Program-made: the position numbers and the translations under genes
Assembly: GCA_031257195.1 (NCBI GenBank)
Contig: JAIRPD010000094.1
Location: 1 to 64,000, forward strand
Direction of reading: 5' to 3'
Length of the DNA stretch: 64,000 bases
Source: Treponema sp.
GTDB taxonomy: Bacteria; Spirochaetota; Spirochaetia; Treponematales; Breznakiellaceae
The notes under the pieces: model-generated
What the model saw: only the letters and a program-made list of their open reading frames with translations
Database searches by the model: none
What the model was told of the DNA's origin: nothing
In this document: in pieces, positions 38,022 through 58,325 of the stretch
How positions within the stretch are numbered: the stretch's first letter is position 1
Layout: each line of letters begins with the position of its first letter

Positions 38022-38050
38022 TTGATGTCCCGGCCCCGGCCCGGTATACT
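38022..38050 (+). promoter_or_regulatory. Promoter of small ORF A (leaderless geometry)
   Basis: TTGATG (38022-38027), 17 bp, TATACT (38045-38050), with the ATG of the 168-nt ORF 6 bases later at 38057. Transcription would start on or next to the ATG. Confidence 0.65.
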
Positions 38051-38056
38051 GTTTCC

Positions 38057-38224
38057 ATGGGACGGCCGGCAGAACGGCTTCCGCCGCCGGCAAGGGGCGT
38101 ACCGCCACCGGTAAGGACGCTATCACCACCGGTAAGGGTCTTATCATCACCGGTAAGGGGCGTATCGCCGCCGGCGGGGACGCTATCACCGCCGGCGGGG
38201 GGGCCGCCGCCGTCAAAACGATAA
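38057..38224 (+). CDS. Small ORF A: 55-residue heptapeptide-repeat peptide made of eight 21-nt blocks
   Basis: The ORF is exactly eight 21-nt blocks including the TAA stop. It reads MGRPAER, LPPPARG, VPPPVRT, LSPPVRV, LSSPVRG, VSPPAGT, LSPPAGG, PPPSKR: a proline-rich basic peptide of seven-residue repeats. No known protein family is recognised. It has no Shine-Dalgarno but a promoter fits leaderless translation. It is followed after 15 bases, in the same frame, by the gene at 38240. It may instead be only a DNA or RNA repeat array that happens to be open; the second locus at 57454 with identical length argues that the frame matters. Confidence 0.5.
   Translation: MGRPAERLPPPARGVPPPVRTLSPPVRVLSSPVRGVSPPAGTLSPPAGGPPPSKR
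38078..38203 (+). repeat. 21-bp tandem repeat array A (six units) with a palindromic hexamer per unit
   Basis: Six contiguous units of 21 bp (starts 38078, 38099, 38120, 38141, 38162, 38183) follow the pattern [C/G]T-x-[CT]CRCCGG-YRRGG. Each contains a self-complementary hexamer: GCCGGC in units 1, 5 and 6 and ACCGGT in units 2, 3 and 4, so both outer bases change together. Units are direct repeats without spacers, hence not CRISPR. 21 bp is two helical turns. Confidence 0.85.
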
Positions 38225-38239
38225 CTGGGGAGGCAACGA

Positions 38240-38902
38240 ATGCACGGAAAGAGCTATATCCCAACCCGGGAGGCTGATTTTGTGGACTGGAGCGGTAATC
38301 TATTGGCCGTGGCCAGGGCCCACCAACAGGAATGGGGGCTGAATGGGACCCACTTGACGGAGCTGGAGGGCCTTCAGGCGGAGGTGAAGGCCCTGCACGA
38401 GACCTGCCGGACCTCGATGTACACCAAGCTGGATATGCAGGCCAAGAACGAAAAGAAGGCGCTTTTGAAGAAGCGGCTGGAGGTGTATGTGCGGAATAAC
38501 CTCCAGAATAACGACGTTATGACGGATAACGGCCGGGAGGCTCTGCGGATTCCTATCCACGACCGGAATCCTACCCCCCGGCCCGCGCCGGATACGGCGC
38601 CGGAGACGGAGACGGAAACGCCCCTGCCCCGGACGCTGCGGATCAAGTTCCGGGGGGTGGCCGCTCCCCGGTGGGGGAAGCCCGAGGGGGTTCACGGCCT
38701 GGAGTGCCGCTGGGTGGTGTCGGACGCGCCGCCGGAGAGCATGGCGGGGCTGGTCAATTCGGATTTCGCCACCCGCAGCCCCCTGACCTTGACTTTTGAC
38801 GAGGGCGCCCGGGGGAGGCGGCTGTACTTCGCCGTCCGCTGGGAGGGAACCTCCGTCCAGAAGGGGCCGTGGAGCGAAATCTTCTCCACCATCATTCCAT
38901 GA
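38240..38902 (+). CDS. Uncharacterised repeat-array-associated protein, copy A
   Basis: A protein of 220 residues with GGAGG 6 bases before the ATG. No signal peptide. The N-terminal part is helical (MHGKSYIPTREADFVDWSGN, HQQEWGLNGTHLTELEGLQA), with a second helical block (KKRLEVYVRNNLQNND). A Pro/Thr/Glu linker at about 106-130 follows, then a beta-rich, fibronectin-III-like C-terminal domain (LRIKFRGVAAPRWGKPEGVH, RRLYFAVRWEGTSVQKGPWS). It is clearly paralogous to the 57645 protein. From memory, similar uncharacterised proteins occur in gut Bacteroidetes and other taxa; function unknown. The downstream hairpin cluster overlaps its stop codon. Confidence 0.8.
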   Translation: MHGKSYIPTREADFVDWSGNLLAVARAHQQEWGLNGTHLTELEGLQAEVKALHETCRTSMYTKLDMQAKNEKKALLKKRLEVYVRNNLQNNDVMTDNGREALRIPIHDRNPTPRPAPDTAPETETETPLPRTLRIKFRGVAAPRWGKPEGVHGLECRWVVSDAPPESMAGLVNSDFATRSPLTLTFDEGARGRRLYFAVRWEGTSVQKGPWSEIFSTIIP

Positions 38903-39057: not shown

Positions 39058-39294
39058 ATGGGAAGAAGATCAAATTCAAGGGGCGGTAAAACCTATGTTA
39101 CCTCAAAAGGCTATCGTAGGTTTAAGGATAGCGGCACGTATGTGCATCGCTGGATGGAAGAAAAAAAACTTGGACGTGAACTAAAGTCCGGTGAAGTTGT
39201 GCATCATAGGGATGGGAATACACTTAACAATTCTCCTGGCAACTTGAAAGTTTATCCTAATCAAGCGGCGCACATGAGGGATCACCATAAATAA
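39058..39294 (+). CDS. Small HNH endonuclease-like protein
   Basis: A protein of 78 residues from an ATG with AAGGAG upstream; an in-frame ATG at 39022 lacks a site. The C-terminal half VVHHRDGNTLNNSPGNLKVY with following HMRDHH is the HNH/homing-endonuclease pattern (paired His, Asn-x-x-Asn, later His). The N-terminal half (GRRSNSRGGKTYVTSKGYRR, then VHRWMEEKKLGRELK) is like the DNA-binding lead of phage HNH proteins. Base use is visibly more AT-rich than the neighbours, which suggests transfer by phage or a mobile element. It is shorter than free-standing enzymes, so activity is uncertain. Confidence 0.7.
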   Translation: MGRRSNSRGGKTYVTSKGYRRFKDSGTYVHRWMEEKKLGRELKSGEVVHHRDGNTLNNSPGNLKVYPNQAAHMRDHHK

Positions 39295-39420: not shown

Positions 39421-42420
39421 ATGAAAAAACGGGCATGGGGACAGTATCTTTATCTCGCGGCGGCGGCGCTCCGGGTTCTGGTCTTTACGGGGTGCGCGGA
39501 GCCCTATTTCGAGCGTTCGTTTCTGCAGGCGACGCCCCTGCGGACCAGCTACGACGTGGGCGGTTCGTTTGACCCGGCCTCGGACATCGCCGTGTACCGG
39601 TGGGAGGAGGCCGGGGGTACGCGGCCCCTGTCCTTCGCCGCCGGGGAGTTTACCGTAACGCTGACATCCCCTTTGGGAGGCGCCGTTACCCTCACTTCCG
39701 GGACGCATAACCTCGACGCGGGGGGGGACTGGGGAGTGGCGGTGTCGGCGGCGGGGTTGAGCGTCCGGTCCTACACCATCACCGTGGGCCGCGGCCCGGT
39801 CGTCTGGCCCGCGGAGGCCCGGGTGGTCCCCCTCAAAAACACCTACGACGTGAATGATTCCATCGTTAAGGCCGGGGACCTGGCCGTGTACACCCGGAAT
39901 ACCGCGACCGGCCTGATGACGCCGGTCCCCGCCGCCGATATACAACTGGCCGCCGGGGGGCTTTCGTCCCCGGCGGGGACCGCGGCCCTGGGGCCGCTGC
40001 CCCCGGGGGACCCCTTGACGGTTACCGTGACGGTGAGCGGCTACGCCGTGAGCCCCGCCCCGGTCTACAATGTGTGGGTGGGTTCCGGGGGCGGGCCCGT
40101 AATCCCCGCGCTGCTGGTGGTGCCCCTGCGGAGCGTCTACAGCGTGGGGGGCGTTATCGATCCGGCCAATGACCTGCGGGTGTACCGGGGCAACCCGACC
40201 GGGGTCTACAGCCTCCTGACCCATGGGACGGGGATGGGGAACTACAAGCTCACCCTCGGCTCGGGGACGGAGGATCCCGTTACCGCGCCCTTTACCTCGG
40301 CGCAGGTGGGGACCCCCGTTGCCATCACGGTAACGGAAATCGCCGCCGGCGGCCTCACCGCCGCCTACACCGTGGACGTCATGGACGCCGGGGTCGCGGT
40401 CCTGTCCTTCTTTTACGCGGACCACTCCCCGGGGAACCCCACCCCCGACGGCGTCCTGAGGCGGAACGTCCAGGGGGCCTACCTGAGAGAGGGGACGCCC
40501 CAGGGCAAGACGATCCACAGCGTGGTTCCCATCAACCCGGCCACCGGCCAGCCCTTCCCGGGCAAAACCTACCCGGTGGGCCGGGCGGACACCGAGGCGG
40601 TAACCCTCAACCTGGACCCCTCCTCGGGGGATCTCTCGTTCCGGGCCGCCTACAGCGCCGGGCCCTACAACGGCTTTATCCCCATCGGGAGCGCGGCGGA
40701 GCTGGCGATGATTACCAACCTGAACGGCAAGTACGCGCTGACCGCGGATATCGACCTGCTGGGTTTCGCCGCCTATAATCCGCGGAACTGGACGCCCATC
40801 GGCGATCAGGGCGCTCCCTTTAGCGGCGTCTTTGACGGCGGCGGCAAAATGATAAGCGGCGTCAGGATTCCCGCGGGCGGCGGCCACACCGGCTTCTTTG
40901 GGGCGGTGGGCGGCGGTACGGCGGTGGTCAGGAACCTCATAGTGGACGGCGGTATCACCGGCGGGGGGAATACCGGCGGCGTGGCCGGGAAAGTCGGCGG
41001 CTCCGCGAAACTCGAGAACTGCGAGAACCGGGCGTCGGTAACCAGTAACAGCCCAAACACCGGCGGCGTGGCGGGCTGGGTTACGGGCGGCGCGTCCCTG
41101 ACCAACTGCCGCAACGCCGGCGCGGTAACCAGTACGTACAAGCGCGAAAGCGACGCGGGCATGGGCGAAACCTTCCCCGGCAACACCGGCGGCGCGGCGG
41201 GCTTTGTTGACGGCGGCGGCGTCCTGACCGGCTGTTCCAACTCCGGCCCGGTGAAGAGCGGTTCCAGCAACACCGGCGGCGTGGTGGGGAGTATCGAACT
41301 GTCGAACGGCGCCGTCCTGTCCTACTGCTCCAACTCCGGCAGCGTAACAAGCGAGGGCAGTGTTTCTTCCCCCTCTCCCTCCGAATCCCCCCACTGCTTC
41401 GCCGACAATACCGGCGGGGTGGCGGGGAAAATAACCGTCCCGCCGGGCGCGGCCGCGGCCGTAAACGGCTGTTCCAACAGCGGCGCGGTGATGCCCAGAA
41501 ATTTCTCTTTCCCCCCCAACGTCTACGGCCCCACCTTGGGTAGTTGGAATGCCGGCGGGGTGGCGGGCCTTGTCCGGGGCGCGGTAACCCTCAGGAACTG
41601 CTTTAACTATGAAACGATAAATGGCGCCTCCGATACCAGGGTCCGCTATTTGGGCGGCCTGGTGGGAAACGTTGACGGCGCCGTTCTGTCCGCCTGCCAC
41701 AACCTGGGCGCGGCGCATGGCGGTAACGGTTCCGGCGGCGTGGCGGGCATCGTCCAGAACGGCGGAAGAATCGAAAATTGCGTCAACTGGGGCCAAATAG
41801 ACTGCGACGGCCAGTGGGAAGGCGGTATAGCGGGGATGGTCGATAACGGAACCCTCTCCAACTGCCTCAACCGGGGTGTCGTGAACAGCTTCAACAGCGG
41901 CGGCCGCTATGTCGGCGGCGTGGCGGGCCTCGTCCAGAACGGCGGGATCGTCAGGAACTGTTCCAACTCCGGTAACCTGGATACCTACACCGCTGAAACC
42001 GGCGGCGTCGCGGGGAAGGTCGAGGACGGGACGCTGGTGAATTGCTCCAACACGGGACTGGTACTGTTTGCCGTCGGTAGTGATAAAGGCGGCGTGGCGG
42101 GTATTGTTGGGAACGGCGGAACTCTCCGGGACTGCTCCAATTCGGGGGAGGTGAGACGCGACACCGTCCCCTATGGTACCGCCTACAACGCCGGCGGCGT
42201 GGCGGGGAGGGTCGAGGGCGGAGTACTCCGCGACTGCTCCAATTCGGGCGATGTTACCTTTGCCGGAAACGGCGACTATGTCGGCGGCGTGGCGGGCCGG
42301 CTTGTTACCGGAACTATTGACAACTGCCATAACACGGGGACGTATACGGGCGCCCCGAACACCGGCGGCGTCTGCGGAATGAACGACGGCGGAACGGTTA
42401 CCAACTCCACCTCCACCTAG
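39421..42420 (+). CDS. Large GLUG-repeat lipoprotein
   Basis: The 999 residues start with a lipoprotein signal (AAAALRVLVFTGC, Cys about 22). Residues about 30-330 hold three related beta domains (TPLRTSYDVGGSFDPASDIAVY, VPLKNTYDVNDSIVKAGDLAVY, VPLRSVYSVGGVIDPANDLRVY). After about residue 420 (AYNGFIPIGSAAELAMI and YALTADIDLLGF) come many GLUG-type repeats, NTGGVAGxV...L.NC.N.G.V, up to the stop. Such proteins form long beta-helix surface structures, with adhesion or glycan contact as inferred roles. A gap of 126 bases before it has a GC-rich hairpin (CCGCCGC/GCGGCGG at about 39303-39330) and no strong promoter. Confidence 0.88.
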   Translation: MKKRAWGQYLYLAAAALRVLVFTGCAEPYFERSFLQATPLRTSYDVGGSFDPASDIAVYRWEEAGGTRPLSFAAGEFTVTLTSPLGGAVTLTSGTHNLDAGGDWGVAVSAAGLSVRSYTITVGRGPVVWPAEARVVPLKNTYDVNDSIVKAGDLAVYTRNTATGLMTPVPAADIQLAAGGLSSPAGTAALGPLPPGDPLTVTVTVSGYAVSPAPVYNVWVGSGGGPVIPALLVVPLRSVYSVGGVIDPANDLRVYRGNPTGVYSLLTHGTGMGNYKLTLGSGTEDPVTAPFTSAQVGTPVAITVTEIAAGGLTAAYTVDVMDAGVAVLSFFYADHSPGNPTPDGVLRRNVQGAYLREGTPQGKTIHSVVPINPATGQPFPGKTYPVGRADTEAVTLNLDPSSGDLSFRAAYSAGPYNGFIPIGSAAELAMITNLNGKYALTADIDLLGFAAYNPRNWTPIGDQGAPFSGVFDGGGKMISGVRIPAGGGHTGFFGAVGGGTAVVRNLIVDGGITGGGNTGGVAGKVGGSAKLENCENRASVTSNSPNTGGVAGWVTGGASLTNCRNAGAVTSTYKRESDAGMGETFPGNTGGAAGFVDGGGVLTGCSNSGPVKSGSSNTGGVVGSIELSNGAVLSYCSNSGSVTSEGSVSSPSPSESPHCFADNTGGVAGKITVPPGAAAAVNGCSNSGAVMPRNFSFPPNVYGPTLGSWNAGGVAGLVRGAVTLRNCFNYETINGASDTRVRYLGGLVGNVDGAVLSACHNLGAAHGGNGSGGVAGIVQNGGRIENCVNWGQIDCDGQWEGGIAGMVDNGTLSNCLNRGVVNSFNSGGRYVGGVAGLVQNGGIVRNCSNSGNLDTYTAETGGVAGKVEDGTLVNCSNTGLVLFAVGSDKGGVAGIVGNGGTLRDCSNSGEVRRDTVPYGTAYNAGGVAGRVEGGVLRDCSNSGDVTFAGNGDYVGGVAGRLVTGTIDNCHNTGTYTGAPNTGGVCGMNDGGTVTNSTST

Positions 42421-57418: not shown

Positions 57419-57446
57419 TTGTCTTTTCTGGAAACCGTGGTATTAT
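57419..57446 (+). promoter_or_regulatory. Candidate promoter of small ORF B (leaderless geometry)
   Basis: TTGTCT (57419-57424), 16 bp, TATTAT (57441-57446), then 7 bases to the ATG at 57454. The same box read on the minus strand is TATAAT, but without a -35. Confidence 0.5.
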
Positions 57447-57453
57447 AAACGCC

Positions 57454-57621
57454 ATGCGCCCCCGGGCGGGGGAGGGCCGCCCGCCGGGTTGGGAGGGTCT
57501 CCCGCCGCGATGGGAGACCCTCCCTTCGGTGTGGGAGGGTCTCCCTTCGGTAGGGGAGGGCCTCCCTTCGGTGGGGGAGAGGCTGACGATGGGGTATCCG
57601 CTCCCCCTGGGGGGGCGTTAG
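57454..57621 (+). CDS. Small ORF B: 55-residue heptapeptide-repeat peptide made of eight 21-nt blocks
   Basis: Again exactly eight 21-nt blocks with the stop codon. It reads MRPRAGE, GRPPGWE, GLPPRWE, TLPSVWE, GLPSVGE, GLPSVGE, RLTMGYP, LPLGGR. The peptide is acidic where small ORF A is basic, but both have Leu-Pro-rich heptads of equal number and length. No Shine-Dalgarno precedes the ATG. Other frames, and the minus strand, are also open here, so coding is inferred mainly from the match of architecture with the first locus. Confidence 0.5.
   Translation: MRPRAGEGRPPGWEGLPPRWETLPSVWEGLPSVGEGLPSVGERLTMGYPLPLGGR
57470..57579 (+). repeat. 21-bp tandem repeat array B with GGGAG-NNN-CTCCC palindromes
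   Basis: Contiguous 21-bp units (57475, 57496, 57517, 57538, 57559). Each junction has GGGAG, three bases, CTCCC: perfect at 57491-57503, 57512-57524, 57533-57545 and 57554-57566, and imperfect at 57470. The central triplet is GGT, ACC, GGT, GGC in turn, so the centre changes while the arms stay fixed. No spacers, hence not CRISPR. Confidence 0.85.
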
Positions 57622-57644
57622 TTTACGAAACAAGGATGGCGATC

Positions 57645-58325
57645 ATGCGCGAACACAAACACGGCTATTATCTTCCCGCGGGGGACTTTGAGTTCTACGA
57701 GTGGGCCCTCAACTTCCACGCCGTCGCGGCGGCCCACGCGGCGGACTGGGGGCTGCCCGCGGAGGAGCTGGCCGCCTTCCAGGCGGGGATTACGGCCTAC
57801 AAGGCCCTTTTGGACGGGGCCTACGGGGAAAACGCGGGGAAGGAGGATATCCGCCGCAAGAATACCGCCCACCGGGAGCTGGCCCACCAGGCCCAGGACC
57901 TGGTGAACGCCCATATCCGGTATAACCGGCGGATCTCCCCCGACGATATGGCCGCCCTGGGGGGGCCGGTCCGCGACGGGACGCGCACCCCCGTGCCGCC
58001 GCCGGCGAGCCGGCCCGCGTTTACCCTCCGGCCGGTGAACAGCCGGGAGCTGCGGATCGACTTCCACGACGAGGGTTCCACCCGGCGGGCTATTCCCTAC
58101 GGCCTGGACGGGGCGATCCTCCACCTCCAGGTGCTGGAGCCGGGGGAGGCGGTTCCCCTGGACCCGGAGGCCCTCCCCAAGACCCGGCTCCTCACCGCCA
58201 GTCCCCAGGTTTACGAGTTTTCCCCCCCGGACCAGGGTAAGCGGGTGGTCTGCGCCCTCTGCTGGCAGAACGAGAAGGGGGAAAAGGGTCCCTACACGGA
58301 TATTGTTACCGCCGTTGTGCCCTAG
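57645..58325 (+). CDS. Uncharacterised repeat-array-associated protein, copy B
   Basis: A paralogue of the 38240 protein, 226 residues from the ATG at 57645, with AAGG 9 bases upstream. The frame stays open upstream to 57489, and ATG 57636 is an alternative. Shared features: HGYYLPAGDFEFYEWALNFH, AADWGLPAEELAAFQAG, a helical block, a Pro-rich hinge (GTRTPVPPPAS), and a beta-rich end (LRIDFHDEGSTRRAIPYGLD, RVVCALCWQNEKGEKGPYTD). Both proteins end in KGP(W/Y)(S/T)(E/D)I and a final Pro. They are well diverged, so the duplication is old or the copies were acquired separately. Function unknown. Confidence 0.8.
   Translation: MREHKHGYYLPAGDFEFYEWALNFHAVAAAHAADWGLPAEELAAFQAGITAYKALLDGAYGENAGKEDIRRKNTAHRELAHQAQDLVNAHIRYNRRISPDDMAALGGPVRDGTRTPVPPPASRPAFTLRPVNSRELRIDFHDEGSTRRAIPYGLDGAILHLQVLEPGEAVPLDPEALPKTRLLTASPQVYEFSPPDQGKRVVCALCWQNEKGEKGPYTDIVTAVVP

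Follow-up and report, generated by a model that had tools for sequence, protein, structure and literature searches.

Organization of the Locus

The window (the whole stretch of DNA analyzed, 64,000 nucleotides) contains at locus A a promoter, a short tandem array and a gene of 220 codons in close succession. The predicted sigma70-like promoter A lies on the plus strand at 38022..38050 (TTGATG-17-TATACT; scan score 11.0) and ends 10 bp before array A; as read from the sequence, it consists of a -35 element TTGATG (38022-38027), a gap of 17 bp and a -10 element TATACT (38045-38050). Six bases past the -10 element, an ATG at 38057 opens a 55-codon reading frame on the plus strand (38057..38224, 168 nt, ending with TAA) that overlaps the array. 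Its end at 38224 is followed after 15 bases, and in the same frame, by the ATG of gene A at 38240. An earlier note on this DNA had described the promoter and its position relative to the ATG, the length of the small reading frame, the gap, a good ribosome binding site and the in-frame gene, and all of this is borne out by the sequence. Array A (38061..38207, no strand assigned) consists of seven 21-bp units such as CACCACCGGTAAGGGTCTTAT, which are degenerate forms of the dyad GGATAAGACCSTTATCC of its subfamily; TRF calls the array with period 21 at 38082-38174 (score 100), and a motif scan lengthens this span to the seven units. The seven units are out of register with the eight 21-nt blocks of the small reading frame. 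Array and gene are 32 bp apart (38208..38239, plus strand), and this spacer holds the ribosome binding site GGGGAGG at 38227-38233.

Gene A (38240..38902, plus strand; 220 aa) encodes a helical bundle followed by a fibronectin type III (FN3) domain and belongs to a family that has no entry in Pfam, NCBIfam or PHROGs. Its neighbors are genes for an NAPRTase, an HNH_3 protein and a GLUG protein, and there is no Par NTPase partner among them. The HNH_3 protein (79 aa; 39058-39294) lies directly downstream of gene A, and a putative lipoprotein of 999 aa with GLUG repeats follows the locus A module at 39421-42420. No known RNA family was found within the 64-kb window.

A second module, locus B (57470-58325), is located 19 kb from locus A. 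Sequence reading and the promoter scan place a sigma70-like promoter on the plus strand at 57419..57446 (TTGTCT-16-TATTAT), ahead of array B (57470..57595, no strand assigned), whose six 21-bp units have a GGGAGGGTCTCCC-like dyad motif unlike that of array A. Gene B (57645..58325, plus strand; 226 aa) is a paralogue of gene A with 28% identity. The motif of array B is also present in trans, at L345:5443-5576.

Distribution and Predicted Structure of the Protein Family

The host genome, a draft of 2.54 Mb in 135 contigs in which assemblers can have shortened arrays, contains 23 near-full-length copies of the gene A family as well as fragments. Of 98 genomes sampled from its taxonomic family, 67 contain relatives, some of them up to 30 or more, whereas relatives were absent from the other groups of the phylum that were sampled. 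In Bacteroidota the family is present in a patchy, scattered manner. The relatives that carry a name come from Treponema or Spirochaetaceae MAGs and from a single Bacteroidales MAG; record names and a published study suggest a termite-gut origin for these and a place in Breznakiellaceae for the host (PMC13067680). Pfam, NCBIfam, PHROGs, PADLOC and PDB sequences gave no convincing match to the family, and the open-access literature yielded no description of the family or its arrays. A phage origin was rejected since searches of phage records and viral contigs turned up no relatives; a plasmid origin was likewise set aside after a search of plasmids, with a distant Bacteroidota relative as the only query, gave no match.

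AlphaFold2 was run on twelve sequences. The model of gene A (mean pLDDT 90.8) comprises a three-helix bundle at residues of about 11-101 and an FN3 sandwich at about 122-218, in agreement with the helical plus fibronectin-like protein that had been proposed before. The C-domain was assigned to FN3 by its Foldseek match to FN3 domains (best E 8.4e-6). The N-domain alone gave nothing under E 0.001 against the PDB with Foldseek, and a second look for a known fold returned only generic helical bundles, so that this assignment was dropped. With a median pI of 6.4 the N-domain is not basic overall, while its helix 3 has a net charge of +3. No transposase domain was found in 20 members scanned against Pfam, with no match to Y1 at E up to 1, and the predicted helical bundle and FN3 domain show no sign of a nuclease. 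Alignments indicate that N- and C-domains are freely shuffled among paralogues (29 N clusters and 23 C clusters), with 223 pairs similar only in the N-domain and 264 similar only in the C-domain, which makes the effects of the two domains separable.

Arrays Accompany the Family Genes

Family members with upstream arrays are the rule. Among 149 members collected, 148 had enough upstream DNA to be judged, and 137 of these carry an array with a 21-bp period. Homologues without any upstream array would, according to the earlier note, have counted against its observation; they proved to be the exception. Of the readings that the note left open, a binding array or a non-coding repeat is supported. 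Of the 11 members without an array, two are cut by contig ends and four still have their best lag at 21 or 42. The copies in the host genome have period-21 arrays upstream once they are oriented on the gene, as do the relatives in other genera, and even distant homologues in Bacteroidota, in which mainly the N-domain is recognizable, carry 21-bp arrays. The step from unit to unit is exactly 21 bp in 1449 of 1463 cases, and over 142 upstream regions identity in the best window averages 0.765 at lag 21 vs. 0.38 at lags 20 and 22, whereas downstream of the family genes the profile is flat and the lag-21 peak is absent. The 21-bp array of locus A is therefore real and far above chance. It is not unique, since array B precedes a paralogue in the same window. 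The arrays have a median of 11 units and a median spacer of 69 bp to the ATG, and their units stand directly in tandem, head to tail, with no unique spacers between them, unlike a CRISPR array.

The claim that the array encodes a peptide was not sustained. Relative to expectation, nonsynonymous changes among units stand at 1.007 for open plus frames and at 1.003 for open minus frames, so there is no codon-level constraint in any frame, and 27 of 124 related arrays are closed in all plus frames. Array lengths are indeed multiples of 3, as the earlier note expected, but this follows from the fixed 21-bp unit and needs no coding; any 21-bp repeat will give heptads in every frame. A leaderless or secreted heptad peptide of 55 residues, for which the spacing between promoter and ATG would permit a leaderless mRNA, was rejected on the lack of purifying selection and on the closed arrays, and we regard it as extremely improbable. 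Judged from the sequences, the 55-codon reading frame is probably a by-product of array A.

Position of the Arrays Relative to Promoters

The position of the array with respect to the promoter depends on the spacer. At loci with a spacer of at least 55 bp, a strong sigma70-like promoter lies between array and gene in 36 of 88 cases vs. 20.8 expected from shuffles, a moderate excess obtained with an E. coli promoter model. In over half of these promoters the -35 element is no more than about 20 bp away from the end of the array, and at such loci the array would be outside the mRNA. At short-spacer loci, locus A included, the promoter is found just upstream of the array (13 vs. 8.0 expected with the same model), and the array of locus A would accordingly be transcribed. 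An antisense transcript running from the spacer into the array was considered and rejected, as the spacers give no minus-strand promoter signal.

Symmetry of the Repeat Unit

The unit sequence is private to each locus and mostly dyad-symmetric. Pairing between the arms is high at distances of 4-9 from the unit center and lower at 1-3 and at 10; since the dyad phases were picked by pairing, absolute pairing is inflated, while the tests of covariation, slid partners and mismatches are much less affected. Within arrays, the arms covary with a z of 6.9 against reshuffled partners, compared to about 2.0 or less for slid-partner controls. A purine at -2 and a pyrimidine at +2 occur without base-pair covariation, which points to dyad symmetry as in double-stranded DNA. 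On the gene strand, however, A.C mismatches due to single transitions exceed G.T mismatches (372 to 271; 67 to 35 arrays, P 0.002), and unpaired positions have no such bias. To judge from the sequences, this excess favors a hairpin on the opposite strand, and a reading based on duplex DNA leaves it unexplained. The observation that the core is conserved while the stems are free was dropped as proof of a hairpin, because in a formal test the stems followed the N-domain no less closely than the core did.

The Repeat Motif Follows the N-Domain

The more similar two proteins are, the more similar their motifs tend to be (Mantel r 0.11; null standard deviation 0.025, maximum 0.08 among 500 nulls), a correlation that is significant, yet small. 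Thanks to the shuffling of domains it can be assigned to one of them: pairs with similar N-domains and dissimilar C-domains share the motif core (0.337, with a baseline of 0.282), whereas pairs with similar C-domains and dissimilar N-domains do not (0.287, near the baseline). The spacers between array and gene in those same pairs are hardly more alike than background, meaning that the motif is kept as the adjoining DNA drifts. Linked inheritance could yield part of the correlation between motif and protein, but does not by itself explain the retention of a motif beside a drifting spacer. In the subfamily of locus A, arrays in several genera share GGATAAGACCSTTATCC. As far as sequences can tell, the pairing of array and protein is well supported. 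Single residues that set the specificity could not be named, the signals of individual columns being too weak.

Arrays in Trans

The survey for arrays with a period of 21 or multiples thereof covered 1.67 Mb (66%) of the host genome and returned 61 arrays, of which 23 adjoin family genes and 38 are located elsewhere. For 21 of these 38 orphan arrays there is a match of at least 15 bits per unit to one family motif, a value that none of 190 permuted-motif controls reached (at most 14.4 bits per unit), and at least one trans array exists for 14 of 22 motifs. Many of the remaining orphan arrays fall inside called genes. L238:13055-13253 and L273:95-332, both counted within the 21, share flanks and are probably one locus split between contigs C36 and C49.

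The motif of locus A recurs in a 22-unit array on contig C38 (L240:3557-4102), directly ahead of a promoter; the gene that follows has HisKA, HATPase_c and receiver domains, i.e., those of a hybrid histidine kinase. Other trans arrays precede genes for a class II tRNA synthetase, recQ, an IF-2B family gene and lipoprotein-like reading frames, and one sits between convergent genes. Trans arrays occur in both orientations, and about half have a plausible promoter or gene start alongside, with gene calls around them being heuristic. The L019 motif is found in about six dispersed arrays. Arrays with this motif were seen ahead of repeated short lipoprotein-like reading frames (MNGTN...HPWRVT) at L222:890-1258, at L222 about 8700 and at L304 about 2280; these reading frames share the promoter TTGCGT-16-TATACT.

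A Model for Array Function and Its Alternatives

The family with its arrays, the exact 21-bp period, the dyads, the tracking of the N-domain, the adjacency to promoters and the cognate arrays in trans are what was observed. The reading best supported by these observations, to which we give an even chance, is that locus A would be one of many modules encoding regulators that bind arrays, with each regulator controlling its own promoter as well as a small number of others. Recognition of the repeat unit of the own array would fall to the N-domain, which probably dimerizes. As 21 bp correspond to two turns of B-DNA, successive units face the same side of the helix, which permits cooperative binding. 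Filling of the array may then control the adjacent promoter, most likely as autoregulation, and arrays with the same motif elsewhere would place a few other promoters under the same protein, in the case of locus A that of the hybrid histidine kinase gene. We infer physical binding, by dimers and to double-stranded DNA, and likewise a regulatory effect with its sign and a role for the FN3 domain. Several observations count against this reading: the N-domain has no recognized DNA-binding fold and is not basic overall; the compensatory changes within arrays and the A.C excess fit an opposite-strand hairpin better than a plain dimer site; some trans arrays are away from promoters; and the Mantel correlation is significant, but small.

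By analogy, the array system appears to work most like the omega repressor, although membership in the omega family is not implied. The short iterons to which the omega protein of plasmid pSM19035 binds come in runs of 7-10 and overlap other promoters besides its own; the number of repeats tunes binding (PMC5016525). The omega fold differs from the fold of gene A. Omega, ParR and TubR have a ribbon-helix-helix or winged-helix domain; the N-domain here is a three-helix bundle with no significant PDB match. The family shares with these proteins the tandem repeats upstream of its own gene at the promoter. Locus A resembles this arrangement in that an array is present at its own promoter and the same motif at another. 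Omega is, however, a plasmid protein that works with a Par ATPase, while the system described here comprises some 23 paralogues in one chromosome, every one of which has a motif of its own, and is further set apart by the 21-bp dyad unit and the FN3 domain. In ParR/parC and TubR/tubC, too, tandem repeats precede the gene that encodes the binding protein, but these systems serve plasmid partition with an NTPase partner, none of which is found beside locus A. Among non-coding repeats, those of the spirochaete Leptospira interrogans are also dispersed and in tandem, but according to a survey of prokaryotic satellites such dispersed families are rare; the repeats that it reports exceed 30 nt, and its parts considered here describe no paired protein family (PMC6749651).

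The signals that the duplex reading explains least well would be accounted for if the arrays were tandem stem-loops of RNA or single-stranded DNA, with stems of about 7 bp and a 5-nt core, that are bound by the cognate protein, whether in an RNA scaffold or in a form of control by RNA repeats similar to type III toxin-antitoxin systems. Compensatory changes occur inside arrays, the surplus of A.C over G.T mismatches on the gene strand is what opposite-strand hairpins with G.U pairs would produce, and the array of locus A follows its promoter and would be transcribed. Moreover, ToxI likewise consists of tandem copies (5.5 of them) of a 36-nt repeat and is paired with a toxin gene (PMC5377504), and ToxIN resembles locus A in having tandem repeats directly upstream of the gene of a protein of ~200 aa. 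The promoter shared upstream of the array, a trait of type III systems, is present at locus A, but long-spacer loci have their promoter between array and gene, and at most of those with a recognizable promoter the array is not part of the mRNA, nor is there a promoter signal from the spacer into the array. The exact 21-bp period and the unpaired purine/pyrimidine dyad at +/-2 suit double-stranded DNA, and trans arrays occur in both orientations. In ToxIN, 36-nt transcribed repeats are combined with a nuclease toxin of the ToxN-type endoribonuclease fold, while here the 21-bp repeats are often not transcribed with the gene, and the modeled helical bundle with FN3 has no sign of a nuclease and the family scans gave no match. 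We regard stem-loop arrays as unlikely.

The dispersed copies also recall RAYT genes, which lie beside their own class of palindromic REP/REPIN repeats, have dispersed cognate copies and co-evolve with them (PMC3116915). A protein that aids the expansion and dispersal of its own repeats, with promoter proximity reflecting tolerated insertion, would explain why each motif has one gene-linked array and dispersed copies (about six for L019), and the 21 of 38 orphan arrays that match a family motif correspond to the dispersed copies of the repeat class that flanks a RAYT gene. The 20 members scanned against Pfam have no transposase domain, however, the arrays are strictly head to tail with 21-bp units (median 11) and not single palindromes or inverted REP doublets, and about half of the trans arrays lie beside a plausible promoter or gene start, so that such a selfish system seems quite unlikely. 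The arrays could also be chromosome-organizing sites, i.e., centromere-like or tethering sites filled by the protein in the manner of parC or parS. ParR and omega do bind tandem repeats upstream of their own operons, with omega also repressing the promoters that overlap its repeats (PMC5016525), and about 60 arrays are scattered over the genome; yet these have about 20 different motifs and not one shared site, and locus A has no adjoining Par NTPase, which leaves this explanation very unlikely.

Returning to array-binding regulators, one chromosome could carry about 20 protein-repeat address pairs that are mutually distinct yet share a single 21-bp geometry, with the N-domain reading its own repeat and the FN3 C-domains being shuffled. 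Such a private-address regulatory layer, with an architecture conserved in two phyla while each address diverges, is a possibility we consider somewhat short of an even chance. If the pairing of array and protein means binding, it would explain the 21-bp minisatellites that fill these genomes and look like genes for heptad peptides. It would also represent an unrecognized class of sequence-specific recognition of nucleic acids that involves no known DNA-binding fold, in which dozens of naturally orthogonal protein-site pairs are present per genome and hundreds across relatives. These would form a data set from which a recognition code could be read out and would supply synthetic biology with ready-made orthogonal operators. 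They would also offer a concrete way into the study of gene control in uncultured spirochaetes of termite guts.

Variant and Additional Repeats

One family member (L246, about 1116-1289, genome G028) has an array with a period of 22 bp rather than 21 bp; G028 is a complete genome of the taxonomic family in one contig and contains two loci of this type, counting all array-gene modules. Farther upstream of several family genes (L016, L054, L056, and L077) there are perfect tandem repeats of 7 or 8 bp, for example GGCCACA (x6.7), CCAGAGC (x7.9) and CGGCAATC (x14.8).
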